64,000 nt of DNA from Erythrobacter sp. YJ-T3-07 (GTDB taxonomy: Bacteria > Pseudomonadota > Alphaproteobacteria > Sphingomonadales > Sphingomonadaceae), in contig NZ_JAEAGP010000001.1 in NCBI RefSeq assembly GCF_015999305.1, positions 2,755,001 to 2,819,000 of the forward strand, read 5' to 3'. Numbering within the stretch: position 1 is the first letter of the stretch; each line of letters starts with the position of its first letter. The translations under genes and the position numbers were made by a program. Shown one piece after another: positions 47,613-52,926 of this stretch. The notes beneath the pieces are model-generated. The model saw only the letters and a list, made by a program, of their open reading frames with translations. It searched no databases and had not been told where the DNA came from.

Positions 47613-47825
47613 TCAGTCGGCGGCCGAGAGGTTCACGGCGCTTTCCTTGCCATTGCGGCCCTGCTCGACTTCGTAGTTGAGACGCTGGTCCTTATCGAGA
47701 CCCTGCATCCCGGCCGCCTGGACGGCGGTGATGTGCACGAAGCTGTCGGCCGAGCCGTCGTCCGGCTGGATGAAGCCGAAGCCCTTGTCGCTGTTAAAGA
47801 ATTTTACGGTGCCAGTCTTGGCCAT
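47613..47825 (-). CDS. Cold-shock domain protein (CspA family)
   Basis: A 70-residue single cold-shock domain that binds single-stranded RNA and DNA. RNP1 is KGFGFIQ and RNP2 is SFVHIT, both intact. It probably acts as an RNA chaperone. The gene ends in a strong terminator and has a long upstream region (47826-48141) that could hold a temperature-responsive leader. Confidence 0.95.
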   Translation of the reverse strand: MAKTGTVKFFNSDKGFGFIQPDDGSADSFVHITAVQAAGMQGLDKDQRLNYEVEQGRNGKESAVNLSAAD

Positions 47826-48141
47826 GTGATGTTCCTTTCAAGAACAATGAATGCCCCTCGCGCGAAATTGCGCGCAGGGTTTTGCGTCAAATCGTCCGAT
47901 GAAAGGAAAACGTCGTCTGGTTTACGCCGGGGCCCGGGCGGGTAAGCAGGGGCAAGCGGCGAGGCAAATTCCGAAGTCCGTCGCAAATTTCGACGTCAGC
48001 GAGGCTTATGTAGCACCGATCGGCCCAATTACCTAATCCCCATTGCCTCCTCTCTTGCGCGCCCCCTCGCCACCCGGCCCTGCGAGCGCCGGAACGCGAT
48101 CCCCGCTCGCGCCGTTGGTCGCCCCGTACAAGAGGAGACAG
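47826..48141. other. 316-bp divergent intergenic region
   Basis: It separates the cold-shock gene from the PRC-like lipoprotein gene. It holds the EcfG promoter of the latter (48091-48116) and probably the leader of the former, including a CGCGCGAAATTGCGCG hairpin near 47856. No gene was seen. Confidence 0.55.
48091..48116 (+). promoter_or_regulatory. sigma-EcfG promoter
   Basis: GGAAC at 48091-48095 and CGTT at 48113-48116, spacer 17 bp, full consensus; 25 bp before the ATG of the lipoprotein gene. Confidence 0.78.
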
Positions 48142-48573
48142 ATGATGCAGATTCTCAAACTCGCCGCCCTCCCGCTCGCCGCGCTGGCGATCACCGCTTG
48201 CGAGTCCGAGGCCGAGAAGCAGGGCGACATTGCCGAGGACCGGATGAAGACGCAGGCCGAACAGAGCGCCGCTGCAGCGGGCATGGAAGAGGCCGCCCTG
48301 GGCATGACCGAGCTGCAACTGATCGACGCCGACCTGGTCGCCGCCGACGGCACAGAGCTGGGCGATATCGAAGCGGTCCACCGCGATGCGTCGGGCGCGG
48401 TCGACGGGCTGTTCGTCGAACTGGACAACACCGATCCCGATCGCTTCGTCATGATCCCGCTCGACGGGCTGAGCATGCGGATGGATGGCGACGACAAGGA
48501 TGTGCAGACCGGGATGACCGCGCAGGACCTCGCCGCGCTGCCCGACGCGCAGATGCCCGCCGCGGGAATGTAA
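48142..48573 (+). CDS. PRC-barrel-like lipoprotein
   Basis: A 143-residue protein with lipobox AITACESE. The region TELQLIDADLVAADGTELGDIEAVHRDASGAVDGLFVELD resembles a PRC-barrel beta domain, found in stress proteins and in ribosome or photosynthetic reaction-centre assembly factors. AGAGGAGA precedes two adjacent ATGs (48142, 48145). The EcfG promoter and downstream terminator make it a monocistronic stress gene. Confidence 0.75.
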   Translation: MMQILKLAALPLAALAITACESEAEKQGDIAEDRMKTQAEQSAAAAGMEEAALGMTELQLIDADLVAADGTELGDIEAVHRDASGAVDGLFVELDNTDPDRFVMIPLDGLSMRMDGDDKDVQTGMTAQDLAALPDAQMPAAGM

Positions 48574-48600
48574 GCGCACCGCTGCCCCGCCCTCGACAAG

Positions 48601-48634
48601 GCCCGCCCGAGCAGACCCGCCGGGCGGGCTTTTT
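48601..48634 (+). terminator. Rho-independent terminator
   Basis: GCCCGCCCG and CGGGCGGGC form a perfect 9-bp stem followed by TTTTTC, 27 bp after the lipoprotein stop. Confidence 0.9.
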
Positions 48635-48638
48635 CATT

Positions 48639-48791
48639 GCCATGCTGGAACGCCGCTTCCCACGCGATATCGAACGGCTCCCCCTTCAGCCGGTTGCGCA
48701 GTTTGTAGGCCGACTGGCGCGACATGCCGACCGCCGTCGCCGCCGCCTTCACCTGCTGCGTCGCCGCGAGAACGCGCAGGAACTCCGCCAT
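48639..48791 (-). pseudogene. Remnant of a helix-turn-helix protein
   Basis: The minus strand encodes MAEFLRVLAATQQVKAAATA followed by VGMSRQSAYKLRNRL and FDIAWEAAFQHG, an N-terminal HTH domain common in short sphingomonad DNA-binding proteins. After FQHG the frame runs, without a stop, into the complement of the lipoprotein gene's terminator and coding region. The expected C-terminal part is absent, so this is a truncated leftover. Conserved-looking residues (PPCRRKTKLK) extend upstream to about 48820. Confidence 0.6.
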
Positions 48792-48987
48792 CTTGAGCTT
48801 GGTCTTCCGGCGGCAGGGCGGGGTGTGTCTGGAGAGCTCATCGCGCAGGTTAAGGCAGATTTGCGCGGAGTAGCAAAGTTCTGGCGATGCCGCGCATGGC
48901 GCGCTGCGTTTTACGAATTGATGCAAGGGCTCGCCCCGAAGGGGCGTATCACCTTGCGCGGGGCATACCGCCCCGATTGGAACCGAT

Positions 48988-49119
48988 ATGGCCAAGGGCC
49001 AGCAGAAGAAGAGCCGAGAGAACCGCAAGCCCAAGAAGGAAAAGGTGAAGACCAACGCCTCCAACCCGAGCATCAAGCCGGGTGCGATCAAGGGGCTGGA
49101 GAATATGAAGAACAGCTAG
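48988..49119 (+). CDS. Small basic protein, 43 residues
   Basis: An open frame MAKGQQKKSRENRKPKKEKV followed by about 23 residues ending GLENMKNS. The pattern resembles short Lys-rich proteins seen in many sphingomonads. It lacks a strong ribosome site, so expression is uncertain. No function can be proposed beyond nucleic-acid binding suggested by charge. Confidence 0.5.
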   Translation: MAKGQQKKSRENRKPKKEKVKTNASNPSIKPGAIKGLENMKNS

Positions 49120-49169
49120 CGGCGAAATGGCGGGGGCGCGCGGCTTTCGCGCCGGTGCCCCCGGCCTTC

Positions 49170-49460
49170 CTACCGGGTGAGGCGCCTGCGATTGGCGCGC
49201 ACCGGCTTTGCATAATGCGCCAGCGCGCGGCCCGTCGCCTCTTCGGCCGACTGGTTTGCGCCGCCTGCCATGATCGCGGGCATCAGCGTCATCGCGGCGG
49301 TCAGCTTCTCGCTCACCATCCGCTCCGCCTCGCTCTCGGCCAGCTTGCCGCCCGCCATGATCCGCATCGAGCGCAGCCAGATGACACAGGACGCCTCCAT
49401 CGAGAGCGCCCAGGTATCGAACGCGAGCCGCGTCCACGAAGCAGCGGGAGATTGGGTCAT
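49170..49460 (-). CDS. Hypothetical protein, helical
   Basis: A 96-residue protein. Its middle (WTRLAFDTWALSMEASCVIWLRSMRIMAGG) looks like an amphipathic or membrane-associated helix typical of short sphingomonad proteins of unknown role, followed by a helical EAERMVSEKLTAAMTL segment and a basic tail. ATG at 49460 is chosen. A one-mismatch EcfG promoter lies 41 bp upstream. Confidence 0.65.
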   Translation of the reverse strand: MTQSPAASWTRLAFDTWALSMEASCVIWLRSMRIMAGGKLAESEAERMVSEKLTAAMTLMPAIMAGGANQSAEEATGRALAHYAKPVRANRRRLTR

Positions 49461-49501
49461 CGGAGGTTTCCTAGGGGTGCGGCGGAATGCTGCAGTGCGA
49501 T

Positions 49502-49526
49502 AACGGGCGGTAGCGCGGAAGGTTGC
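49502..49526 (-). promoter_or_regulatory. Possible sigma-EcfG promoter (one mismatch)
   Basis: On the minus strand GCAAC, 16 bp, CGTT; the -35 differs from GGAAC at one base. It is 41 bp before the start of the 96-residue protein gene. Confidence 0.4.
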
Positions 49527-49589
49527 GTGGCGACGGTCAAGGCTTTGATATCGAGATGGACGCCACCCCCGCTCCCCGATCGGCACGGC

Positions 49590-49832
49590 TCACAATCCGG
49601 CTTTGTCTTCACGCGCGCGTTTCCTGCGTCGGTCGCGTTCGGCGACCGCGAGGGAAAAGTCGGTGTAACGGTAGGGTCCGACCTGGTATTCTCTCGTCTG
49701 GACGAAGGTTATGCCATCGATCCTTACGCCCTTCGGCGCGCCGGCCTGCGCGCCACCTTCATTCTCCCACTCTCTGACCTCGGTCGTGAGGCGCCCGGTC
49801 GCGAGAGGCGCGGCGGGTTGCGCAGGCTTCAT
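49590..49832 (-). CDS. Hypothetical protein
   Basis: An 80-residue protein without recognised family. It has a short beta-like middle (VRIDGITFVQTREYQVGPYRYTDFSLAVAERD) and a basic C-terminus. The ATG overlaps the stop of the preceding gene by four bases, implying translational coupling. Confidence 0.55.
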   Translation of the reverse strand: MKPAQPAAPLATGRLTTEVREWENEGGAQAGAPKGVRIDGITFVQTREYQVGPYRYTDFSLAVAERDRRRKRAREDKAGL

Positions 49833-50032
49833 CGCGGATCCTCGGCCGATGCGTGTCCGTAAATGATGGTAGCCTCGCCCTGCGGCAGCGTGCTGCCCTT
49901 GCGCAGGAGCCGGGTTCGTTCGGCATAGCGCTTGATGAGGTCGAACTGGTTGTCGCGCTGGTCGCCTGGTTTCGCGTCGCACGGTCTGGTGCTCGCCGCC
50001 CGGTTCGTGTCGCTCGATTCACTGCGGTCCAT
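49829..50032 (-). CDS. Hypothetical protein
   Basis: A 67-residue hydrophilic protein beginning MDRSESSDTN, with a predicted helix NQFDLIKRYAERTRLLRKG. No family recognised. It overlaps the next gene (ATGA). The pair superficially looks like a small two-gene module but no toxin or antitoxin motif is visible. Confidence 0.5.
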   Translation of the reverse strand: MDRSESSDTNRAASTRPCDAKPGDQRDNQFDLIKRYAERTRLLRKGSTLPQGEATIIYGHASAEDPR

Positions 50033-50075
50033 GACGCGCTCCTGCAAATGGCGTGGGTATCTTCGGATAGTAAAA

Positions 50076-50110
50076 GGGGAAACGGGGGCGCGATGGTACG
50101 CGCCCCCGAA
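50076..50110 (-). terminator. Rho-independent terminator
   Basis: On the minus strand CGGGGGCGCG and CGCGCCCCCG form a 10-bp stem with a six-base loop, followed by TTTCCCCTTTT; it ends the small cold-shock-like gene. Confidence 0.8.
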
Positions 50111-50117
50111 ATCCGGT

Positions 50118-50375
50118 TCAGGCTTTCTGCTTTTCGGCCCGGTCCTTCTGACCGCCGCCGTTGTCAGCCTTTTCGTGCTGGAGCGACGTCGCATGCGTCT
50201 TGCCGCCATCGATCTGGCGGGTTTCGTAGCCGTAGCTCTGGCCCACGCGAGGTTCCTGACCATTGTCCTTCAGGTCGGACTTGTTGAACGGCAGCGCATC
50301 GCCACCCTTTTCAGGGGTGATCATGCCCGCGCCCTTGGCGGTGTCATACGAGTGAATTTTGCCGGTATGCGACAT
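50118..50375 (-). CDS. Divergent cold-shock-domain-like small protein
   Basis: An 85-residue protein whose first half, TGKIHSYDTAKGAGMITPEKGGDALPFNKSDLK, follows the cold-shock fold with altered RNP1 (KGAGMIT instead of KGFGFI). The second half is hydrophilic and probably disordered. It may bind nucleic acid weakly or have lost that function. It ends with its own terminator. Confidence 0.75.
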   Translation of the reverse strand: MSHTGKIHSYDTAKGAGMITPEKGGDALPFNKSDLKDNGQEPRVGQSYGYETRQIDGGKTHATSLQHEKADNGGGQKDRAEKQKA

Positions 50376-50564
50376 AAAAAGATTCCTTCTTTTTTACGCA
50401 GGCAACCAAGATCGGCCACTTGTGCGATGGCTGCAAAGTTAAAAGAGAAAGAAGGGGGCTTTATTTCAAAACCCTATTCGGTCTATCAGGACTCGGTAGC
50501 GATCTTGTATATGGTACTTGCGATTTATTTCACAACTGGTTTTGTATTTATATCTTTTTATGAC

Positions 50565-50572
50565 TTTATTTT
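50565..50572 (+). repeat. Left target-site duplication TTTATTTT
   Basis: Identical to 52919-52926; eight bases is the size expected for IS1595-family insertions. Confidence 0.93.
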
Positions 50573-50624
50573 GGGGTCTATATACCTGCTTGACCCAATC
50601 TGATTTCCCTGCCATAAGGTGGGC

Positions 50625-51557
50625 ATGGAAACGAGCGCCCCTAAGAAACAGCAGTTCACCAGCCTGATCCAGATGATGCGGGCGATGCCGGATGAGCAGT
50701 CCGCTATCGATCATTTCACCGCGATCCGTTGGAAGCATGGGGCCTACTGCCCTCACTGTGGCGCTACCAAGGTCTATCACTTCAAGGATGGCCGCACGCA
50801 CAAGTGCGGTGAATGCCGTAAGCGGTTCTCGATCAAGGTCGGCACGATCTTTGAAGACAGCAAGATTGGCCTGCGCGAATGGATGCTGGCGATTTGGCTG
50901 CTCACCAATCACAAAAAGGGCATCGCCAGCACGCAGCTTGCTACTGACATTGGCGTAACTCAGAAGACCGCGTGGTTTATGCTCCACCGGCTTCGCTATG
51001 CGGCTCAAACCAAGTCGTTCAACCGCCCGCTGGACGGTGAGATTGAAGCCGACGAAACTTTCATCGGCGGCAAGGAAAAGAACAAGCACGCCAGCAAGCG
51101 CACCGGCGGCAAGCAGGGCGGCAAAGGCAAGGCTATCGTCCTTGGCATTCTGAAGCGGGATGGAGACCTCGTTACGGGCACGCTCCCGAACCTGCGCGCC
51201 AAGAACGTACAGGGCGCGATCAACAGTATTGTCGCTCCCGGTTCTACCGTGATGACCGACGAGCACGTTAGCTTCAACGGATTAAGCGACCGATTCACCC
51301 ACCACCGCGTAAACCACAGCGCGGGCGAGTATGTTCGCAATTACTGCCTTCATACGAACGGCATCGAGAGCGTGTGGGCGCTGTTCAAGCGGCAGGTGAT
51401 TGGCACGCATCACTGGCTCTCGCCTAAGCACCTGAGCCGCTACCTCAACGAAATGACTTGGCGCTTCAACCAGCGCGAAATCGAAGCGGGCGAGCGCGTG
51501 AACGCCCTTCTGGAACAGACGGCAGGTCGCCTCACCTACAAGGAACTGATCGCATGA
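50625..51557 (+). CDS. IS1595-family (ISXO2-like) transposase
   Basis: A 310-residue transposase. An N-terminal zinc-ribbon has YCPHCGATKVYHFKDGRTHKCGECRKRF (CxxC...CxxC), followed by an HTH (TQLATDIGVTQKTAWFMLHRLR). The catalytic core shows DGEIEADETFIGGK, VMTDEHVSF and HTNGIESVWALFKRQ, the DDE/N-type residues of the ISXO2 domain. Start is ATG at 50625 after AAGGTGGG. Its TGA overlaps the start of the passenger gene. Confidence 0.96.
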   Translation: METSAPKKQQFTSLIQMMRAMPDEQSAIDHFTAIRWKHGAYCPHCGATKVYHFKDGRTHKCGECRKRFSIKVGTIFEDSKIGLREWMLAIWLLTNHKKGIASTQLATDIGVTQKTAWFMLHRLRYAAQTKSFNRPLDGEIEADETFIGGKEKNKHASKRTGGKQGGKGKAIVLGILKRDGDLVTGTLPNLRAKNVQGAINSIVAPGSTVMTDEHVSFNGLSDRFTHHRVNHSAGEYVRNYCLHTNGIESVWALFKRQVIGTHHWLSPKHLSRYLNEMTWRFNQREIEAGERVNALLEQTAGRLTYKELIA

Positions 51558-52885
51558 CGGATAATCGCAAGCTTGATGGCCCTGTCGATTTTGATTTTGA
51601 TTTCGAGGAAGCGATGGAGCGCATCGCGCAGACAGACCCGGATGAGGTAACGGCCCTAGTCGCAGCTGATCTGCCGGAAGAGACTATCGATACGCTGCTG
51701 GCGGAATTTGAGGCAGCAGCCCGCGAGACCGAGGACGGAAACCAGTTCTGGACCGCTCGCGAATTGGCGGCTTTGCTGGGTTACGCCGACTACCGGAATT
51801 TCCTCTCAATCGTAGAGAAGGCTAAAACGGCCTGCCGCCAGATGCGGCTCAATCCAGATGATCATTTCGTTGACGTCACCGACATGATCGAGATCGGCAA
51901 GGGCGGTAAGCGCGAAGTCGAGAACATTCACCTTGATCGCTACGCGTGCTACCTGATCGCTCAGAATGGCGACCCTCGTAAGCGGCCCATCAGCTTCGCG
52001 CAGAACTATTTTGCAATCCAGACGCGCCGCCAGCAACTAGCAGACGAGGATGGCGTAGATTTCGGCTCTCTCACTGAGAACCAAAAGCGGCTCTACCTGC
52101 GCAATCAGGTGGTCGAGCAGAACAAGCTTCTTGCTAGTGCCGCAAAGGGCGCGGGGGTTCAGAACAAGGACTTCGGAAAGTTCCACAACCGAGGGTATCA
52201 AGGTCTCTATGGTGGAAGGGGCGTTGATGAAATCCGCTCCTACAAACGCTTGCCAAAGCGCGCTCAAATTCTCGACCACATGGGAAGCACGGAACTGGCA
52301 GCGAACCTGTTTCGAATTACGCAAACTGAAGAGAAGCTGCGCGAACGAAAAATCCAAGGCAAAGAAGCGGCCTGCAACGCGCACTATGAGGTCGGCCTGA
52401 AGGTCCGCCAAACCATGCGGGAACTCAGCGGCATCATGCCTGAAGACCTTCCCGTTGCCGAGGATGTGAAGAAGATCGCTCGGCAGGAACGTAAGCAGCA
52501 GCGCATGCGGGCTGTGGAGCCTCAGAAGCGCATTGAGCAGCCGCTCAATGAGCCGAAAGCCACTGTTCCGGTCGAAATTGACCTTGCCAAAGACCTTTGG
52601 AAATACGCGCTCTTGGTCCTGTCTGTGCAGCCTGAAGGCGAAATGAAGACCTCAGCCATGATTGAGGCGCTGCCGGACTATATCGCGCTTTCAGACGAGC
52701 ATCTGGCAGCGAACGAGAGCCGCAAGGACTCCAAGTTTTCGCAGATCGTGCGCAACCTCAAATCGCACAAGAACAGCAAATCCAACTTTATCTATCAGGG
52801 ATATGCGCAGGATATTCGTGGCGGCTTCAAGATCACCCGGAAGGGGCTGGATTTCGTGCGGGAGTATTTCAAAGACCGGGCTTAA
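51554..52885 (+). CDS. dinD: DinD-like protein with C-terminal winged-helix domain (IS passenger)
   Basis: A 443-residue protein. Residues about 60-310 match DinD: FWTARELAALLGYADYRNFL (BRO-N-like), DRYACYLIAQNGDPRKRPI, YFAIQTRRQQL, LYGGRGVDEI, ILDHMGSTELAANLFR and MPEDLP. Residues about 325-443 add a domain resembling the Mrr N-terminal winged helix (MKTSAMIEALPDYIALSDEH, GFKITRKGLDFVREYF). DinD in E. coli is LexA-regulated and inhibits RecA. Its ATG lies inside the transposase stop (ATGA), so it is coupled to transposition. No alphaproteobacterial LexA box was seen upstream. Confidence 0.9.
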   Translation: MTDNRKLDGPVDFDFDFEEAMERIAQTDPDEVTALVAADLPEETIDTLLAEFEAAARETEDGNQFWTARELAALLGYADYRNFLSIVEKAKTACRQMRLNPDDHFVDVTDMIEIGKGGKREVENIHLDRYACYLIAQNGDPRKRPISFAQNYFAIQTRRQQLADEDGVDFGSLTENQKRLYLRNQVVEQNKLLASAAKGAGVQNKDFGKFHNRGYQGLYGGRGVDEIRSYKRLPKRAQILDHMGSTELAANLFRITQTEEKLRERKIQGKEAACNAHYEVGLKVRQTMRELSGIMPEDLPVAEDVKKIARQERKQQRMRAVEPQKRIEQPLNEPKATVPVEIDLAKDLWKYALLVLSVQPEGEMKTSAMIEALPDYIALSDEHLAANESRKDSKFSQIVRNLKSHKNSKSNFIYQGYAQDIRGGFKITRKGLDFVREYFKDRA

Positions 52886-52918
52886 TTCCGGGCTGGGTCA
52901 CACACGTATATAGGCCCC

Positions 52919-52926
52919 TTTATTTT
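52919..52926 (+). repeat. Right target-site duplication TTTATTTT
   Basis: Identical to 50565-50572, directly abutting the right terminal repeat. Confidence 0.93.

Follow-up and report, generated by a model that had tools for sequence, protein, structure and literature searches.

A DinD gene behind an element-specific leader in an IS1595-family insertion sequence

Insertion sequences (IS) are usually viewed as a transposase with occasional passengers, and Siguier et al. reportedly described IS1595-family elements with passenger genes in 2009. Here we analyse a complete 2,346-bp IS1595-family element with inverted repeats, an 8-bp target duplication and two open genes, the second of which encodes DinD behind a short leader. 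It lies at positions 50573–52918 of a 64,000-nucleotide stretch of Erythrobacter sp. YJ-T3-07 (assembly GCF_015999305.1, contig NZ_JAEAGP010000001.1, positions 2,755,001–2,819,000 of the forward strand; the window). The sections of PMC3129680 and PMC11891212 considered here describe IS1595-family ‘transporter IS’ (tIS) that carry passenger genes, and the latter cites ISNha5 as carrying a transcription regulator; according to a section of PMC8101967, IS1595 elements usually have one transposase gene, with an N-terminal zinc ribbon in most groups. The second, coupled gene departs from this single-gene norm, although ‘usually’ leaves room for it and passengers are on record. The element resembles tIS in its IS1595 transposase, short inverted repeats, 8-bp duplications and a gene dispensable for a minimal IS, but differs in its leader, which stays the same while the cargos joined to it in frame vary, in the existence of leader-only elements and in the DinD cargo; none of these three features figures in the tIS descriptions in those sections (PMC3129680, PMC11891212). 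An IS1595 element carrying a passenger is of a known kind. New here are a leader that is specific to these elements, remains constant and is under selection, its occurrence without cargo, its attachment to DinD and to several other, unrelated cargos, and the in-frame loss of catalytic regions with the gene pair kept. Searches of the open-licence PubMed Central (PMC) literature brought up neither DinD carried by an IS1595 element nor the leader, which is not proof of absence.

Structure and insertion of the element

Features of the element (coordinates in the window):
50565–50572, no strand: target duplication of 8 bp, left copy TTTATTTT (sequence; empty site in genome G864)
50573–50600, plus strand: left terminal inverted repeat, matching the right one at 22 of 28 positions
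50625–51557, plus strand: IS1595-family transposase, 310 amino acids (zinc ribbon at residues 22–66, DDE domain at residues 136–282)
51540–51545, plus strand: AAGGAA, putative Shine–Dalgarno-like sequence, 8 nt 5′ of the second ATG and within the region encoding the transposase C terminus
51554–51557, plus strand: ATGA, start codon of open reading frame 2 (ORF2) overlapping the transposase stop
51554–52885, plus strand: ORF2, 443 amino acids, leader, DinD and winged helix (profile matches, prediction)
51554–51679, plus strand: element-specific leader, residues 1–42, F-x-E-A-x-x-R then T-x-P-x-E (leader profile, alignment)
51680–52513, plus strand: DinD core, residues 43–320, with a Bro-N match at residues 60–143 (NCBIfam, Pfam)
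52583–52867, plus strand: predicted C-terminal winged helix, residues 344–438
52891–52918, minus strand: right terminal inverted repeat
52919–52926, no strand: target duplication of 8 bp, right copy TTTATTTT

The initial annotation, made from the sequence alone, had proposed an intact IS1595-type insertion with two full-length genes, the second encoding DinD with an added winged helix, and each of these points is borne out. The transposase exceeds the cut-offs of the NCBIfam model NF033547 (206.9 bits, cut-off 75) and of the DDE_Tnp_IS1595 catalytic domain in Pfam (144.6 bits, cut-off 27), and its zinc ribbon scores 43.9 bits (cut-off 25.4). Both reading frames are open throughout, the duplication lies on both flanks, and the unoccupied site is present in a congener (G864). 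Altericroceibacterium indicum has a 96–98% identical copy at a different site, flanked by the duplication AAAGTGAT; the 8-bp duplication is thereby seen at two independent insertions plus one empty site, and the copy elsewhere together with the empty site shows that the element is mobile. In two other elements (L021:5321–5591 and L022:5309–5534), the DinD stop is separated from the right end by about 230–270 bases, compared with 33–42 in most other DinD elements. The longest contig measures 2,300–2,399 bases in 8 of the 120 DinD relatives listed (1 and 2 in the adjoining 100-base bins), which is too weak to serve as evidence.

By eye we saw no slippery heptamer before the ATGA overlap, and we therefore prefer reinitiation to a programmed frameshift that would give a transposase–ORF2 fusion. 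Promoter prediction was unusable as proof (3 sites compared with 1.3 expected). The annotation had tied translation of the second gene to transposition, which is only half correct: the overlap couples it to translation of the transposase gene, and in four relatives the overlap persists although catalytic residues of the transposase are gone.

A leader shared among cargos

Genomes were sampled from larger groups (296 in the order search, 298 in the family search), with up to 30 loci used per genome search, 80 of the 132 loci on viral contigs and 3 of the 436 plasmid records in which a transposase matched. The comparison rests on 146 distinct transposases whose alignment spans at least 200 residues and extends beyond residue 280; identical copies and the truncated L006/L020, L007, L023, L024, L126, L015 and L127 were set aside.

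Five genomes from the order search (G254, G173, G231, G287 and G193) encode transposases that are 66–76% identical to that of the window and have no DinD relative of this type; their ORF2 opens with the leader, about 40 residues with both motifs, and continues into other sequence. A leader-bearing gene follows all 20 distinct full-length transposases fetched with at least 60% identity, with the start codon at the identical overlap in 19. The leader precedes DinD in 6 of these elements, a Bro-N protein in 3, a tentatively B3-like cargo of 181–185 amino acids in 3 (L080, L191 and L192) and P63C in 1, and has a basic tail only in 7; the DinD cargo of L110 is only 257 amino acids long and has no winged helix. 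A more distant case is L194 (transposase 49% identical), in which the leader precedes a D12 adenine methyltransferase. Because sister elements with the same leader carry other cargo or none, DinD appears to be one of several exchangeable cargos. The initial label of a DinD passenger holds in so far as DinD is present, but the passenger is more than DinD: it starts with an element-specific leader, which in sister elements (transposases 60–78% identical) bears other cargo or none.

A profile built from 14 non-DinD leaders and run on the 15,912 ORFs of all loci gave 39 ORFs with at least 20.0 bits at 39 loci (several being repeats of one place), every one adjoining a transposase or its remnant; below these the highest score was 12.9 bits, and shuffled ORFs reached 7.1 bits at most. 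Built without any DinD, the profile also gave at least 19.7 bits, above the best unrelated ORF, for 119 of the 120 DinD relatives listed, and the one missed is an N-terminally incomplete protein of 310 amino acids. With leader-only proteins as queries, 666 clusters were found at E values up to 1, of which the best 120 are 52–72 amino acids long and have no Pfam domain. The leader of a P63C protein retrieved P63C proteins only (5 of 6 candidates), a reminder that the word-based search reaches just close relatives. In the 20-codon leader motif, the proportion of synonymous differences (pS) was 0.88 and that of non-synonymous differences (pN) 0.14, pooled from 17 pairs with members in common; on these counts the leader is under selection as a protein. 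Three residues of F-x-E-A-x-x-R, namely E, A and R, do not vary among the 25 aligned leaders; the ATGA overlap is constant, and a Shine–Dalgarno-like AAGG precedes ORF2 in most aligned rows.

Maximum-likelihood trees of the transposases require at least 9 cargo changes (21 labelled rows) or 8 (20 rows), with mixed branch support. The approximately unbiased (AU) test rejected a single clade for leader-only elements (P = 0.0019), from which it follows that cargo was, on these trees, gained or lost more than once; a single clade was not rejected for DinD, B3-like or Bro-N elements, and repeated exchange of each cargo class is likely but not proven.

The DinD protein and its linkage to the element

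In a section of PMC4457935, which cites Uranga 2011, Escherichia coli DinD is listed among the regulators of RecA filaments. Residues 43–320 of the element’s protein match the NCBIfam DinD equivalog NF008573 (364.5 bits, cut-off 242), and their Bro-N domain scores above the Pfam cut-off; the protein differs from E. coli DinD in its N-terminal leader, its C-terminal winged helix, its location in an IS and the lack of an SOS-type site in the upstream region searched. That search, with GTTC-N7-GTTC (the pattern that we take to be bound by alphaproteobacterial LexA) and at most one mismatch, found no site from 47646 to 52291, so there is no sign of SOS control upstream of the element genes; within and past the DinD gene such sites occur about as often as chance predicts (window total 53, expected 43.4). 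Bro-N, KilA-N and P63C phage regulators are a further likeness, as DinD has Bro-N, three sister elements have another Bro-N protein and one has P63C, but the element’s versions are fused behind an IS leader and lie inside IS ends. In predicted fold, the DinD core (51680–52513) resembles Deinococcus radiodurans DdrC, although identity in the matched stretch is 18%, whole-chain superposition is poor and the match includes neither the leader nor the third domain; a link between these two damage-induced proteins is possible on this modelling. PADLOC assigns DinD to the candidate family PDC-S13, which we take to be a candidate label rather than a tested system.

The gene is under purifying selection: the ratio of non-synonymous to synonymous substitution rates (dN/dS) is 0.045 between the window and A. 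indicum, whereas for most other pairs the ratio is unusable owing to saturated synonymous sites. In the same comparison (51554–52885 with L005), synonymous divergence is higher in DinD (0.45) than in the transposase (0.27), and ORF2 residues ~110–125 are closer to L020 than to A. indicum; this pattern may reflect recombination inside the DinD cargo.

After removal of repeats, and with all DinD-related loci fetched, all 12 distinct loci for DinD with the winged helix adjoin an IS1595 transposase or remnant, compared with 1 of the 94 DinD cores without a winged helix (the leader-bearing L110) and none of the 11 loci at which a related winged helix occurs by itself. In other genomes, too, DinD and the transposase are thus linked within shared element ends, as the initial annotation had asked to be checked. 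The long DinD is, given this linkage, a component of IS1595 elements; it occurs in several Sphingomonadales genera, and further copies lie on a Zymomonas plasmid and two IMG/VR contigs. The winged-helix relatives with neither DinD nor transposase (L009–L013 and L118–L123) are 26–39% identical in ten cases and 76% identical in L009, a locus that may be the remnant of an element.

Retention of DinD after loss of the transposase core

Transposase genes are shortened to 143 codons in L020 (Sphingopyxis), 214 in L023, 157 in L024 and 161 in L126; by alignment, these lack residues ~135–301, ~190–288, ~154–305 and ~141–289, respectively. The stretches around D212 and E248 are gone in all four and D143 in two (residues that motifs suggest to be catalytic), and yet each shortened gene still ends at ATGA and DinD remains open. 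The deletion in L007 is out of frame, and at least four of five in-frame deletions would arise by chance (1/3 each) with a probability of 0.045; in L015 and L127 nothing of the transposase remains but its end. DinD is intact at all seven of these loci. Its repeated survival beyond the catalytic transposase suggests that DinD has its own use, and the retention of the leader at all seven (at least 20.0 bits) and of the overlap at four links ORF2 to the first gene.

More distant IS1595 elements

Among 126 transposases of less than 55% identity, 12 are accompanied by a ‘VPK’-type short basic ORF, 13 by a ‘LAYRP’-type ORF and 25 by another coupled ORF of at least 60 amino acids, and 76 by none under the criteria used; both patterns were picked by eye after inspection of the data, and in some of the 76 a methyltransferase, KilA-N or P63C gene lies at a different distance (for example, L162, L164, L196 and L247). 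At L210, L216, L229, L235, L249, L253, L256–L258, L262 and L268–L270, a basic ORF of 40–51 amino acids (LDAVTDRVLAYRP...KKxxRR) begins exactly at the stop overlap; 12 other distant transposases have a ‘LAxKLVxVPK’ ORF close by. Profile comparison of these short basic ORFs with the leader was not significant (E = 0.067 and 0.61), and no homology is claimed. DNA methyltransferase genes (Pfam C5, N6/N4 or D12; one with HNH) directly follow the transposase at L161, L165, L194, L198, L201 and L203. The genome of the window has a second IS1595-type transposase, 43% identical, at L002:1422–3421 (G000:C1, ~571190), followed by a P63C-domain gene with a 7-nt overlap offset and a distinct short leader, IEPIDADFDMVAKAM; L083 and L085 begin alike.

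Proposed mechanism and alternatives

We propose, at roughly even odds, a two-gene IS1595 element in which the leader is an accessory protein of the lineage, DNA-binding or phage-type cargo is fused behind it, and DinD binds DNA of the element or the host. ORF2 would be translated by termination–reinitiation at the ATGA overlap and form part of the element’s own machinery. The leader (~42 residues) would be a small accessory protein typical of these IS1595 elements; many relatives have it on its own with a basic tail (52–72 amino acids), and different DNA-binding or phage-regulator domains would have been fused behind it at different times. By docking on the transposase or the element ends, the leader could keep the fused domains close to the element. 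The DinD part, with its DdrC-like predicted fold, may bind DNA that is nicked or single-stranded where transposition occurs, with the winged helix adding DNA contacts, and breaks would be shielded or channelled, or host repair tuned. Support for this mechanism is moderate at best. More doubtful is the specific reading of the leader as a transposase-docking module and a new kind of IS accessory protein, which alone would be a widespread microprotein aiding transposition and with cargo would recruit DNA-binding, methylating or repair-related domains to the transpososome. If that reading were true, the four derivatives L020, L023, L024 and L126 would be transposon-derived regulators, in which the DNA-binding half of the transposase is still co-translated with leader–DinD.

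Alternatively, DinD could be cargo whose benefit to the element comes by way of the host, whether it works there as a regulator of phage type or in defence or anti-defence, and which is being kept or domesticated independently of transposition. We regard this as a substantial possibility, although short of probable: intact DinD at the seven loci with deleted or fragmentary transposases fits it, as do the Bro-N and P63C cargos, the KilA-N or DNA methyltransferase genes of more distant elements and the PADLOC assignment, but a purely host function would need neither the leader nor the overlap, and PDC-S13 is presumably a candidate label only. It is rather unlikely that the leader is a mere translation cassette, in which case it would offer efficient reinitiation downstream of the transposase and accept fusions, with the cargo acting independently on the host. 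The constant overlap, the AAGG and the four of five deletion derivatives that keep frame and overlap would suit a need for translational coupling irrespective of the leader’s role; the amino-acid selection, the three invariant residues and the maintenance of leader-only proteins among the best 120 of 666 clusters argue for a protein-level role. The proposal in the initial annotation that DinD inhibits RecA, protecting transposition intermediates or dampening repair, seems to us unlikely: the listing of E. coli DinD with RecA filament regulators (PMC4457935) and the above-cut-off DinD core favour it, but the same leader also carries cargos unrelated to DinD, and the upstream region searched holds no SOS-type site. 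Since IS1595 elements do pick up passengers, as the tIS sources describe (PMC3129680, PMC11891212), a chance passenger without function might be considered; we judge it very improbable, and the low dN/dS, the linkage at 12 of 12 loci and the leader common to different cargos rule out a one-off pick-up.

Significance

A constant, selected leader with changing fused cargo would, if true, show the controlled gain of functions by an IS, and the leader would be an accessory microprotein that has so far escaped notice (666 clusters as candidates at E values up to 1, with no Pfam match among the best 120). DinD, the role of which is poorly understood, would gain a non-SOS context for study, and its possible relation to DdrC would link two proteins that are induced by damage and whose mechanisms are unclear.
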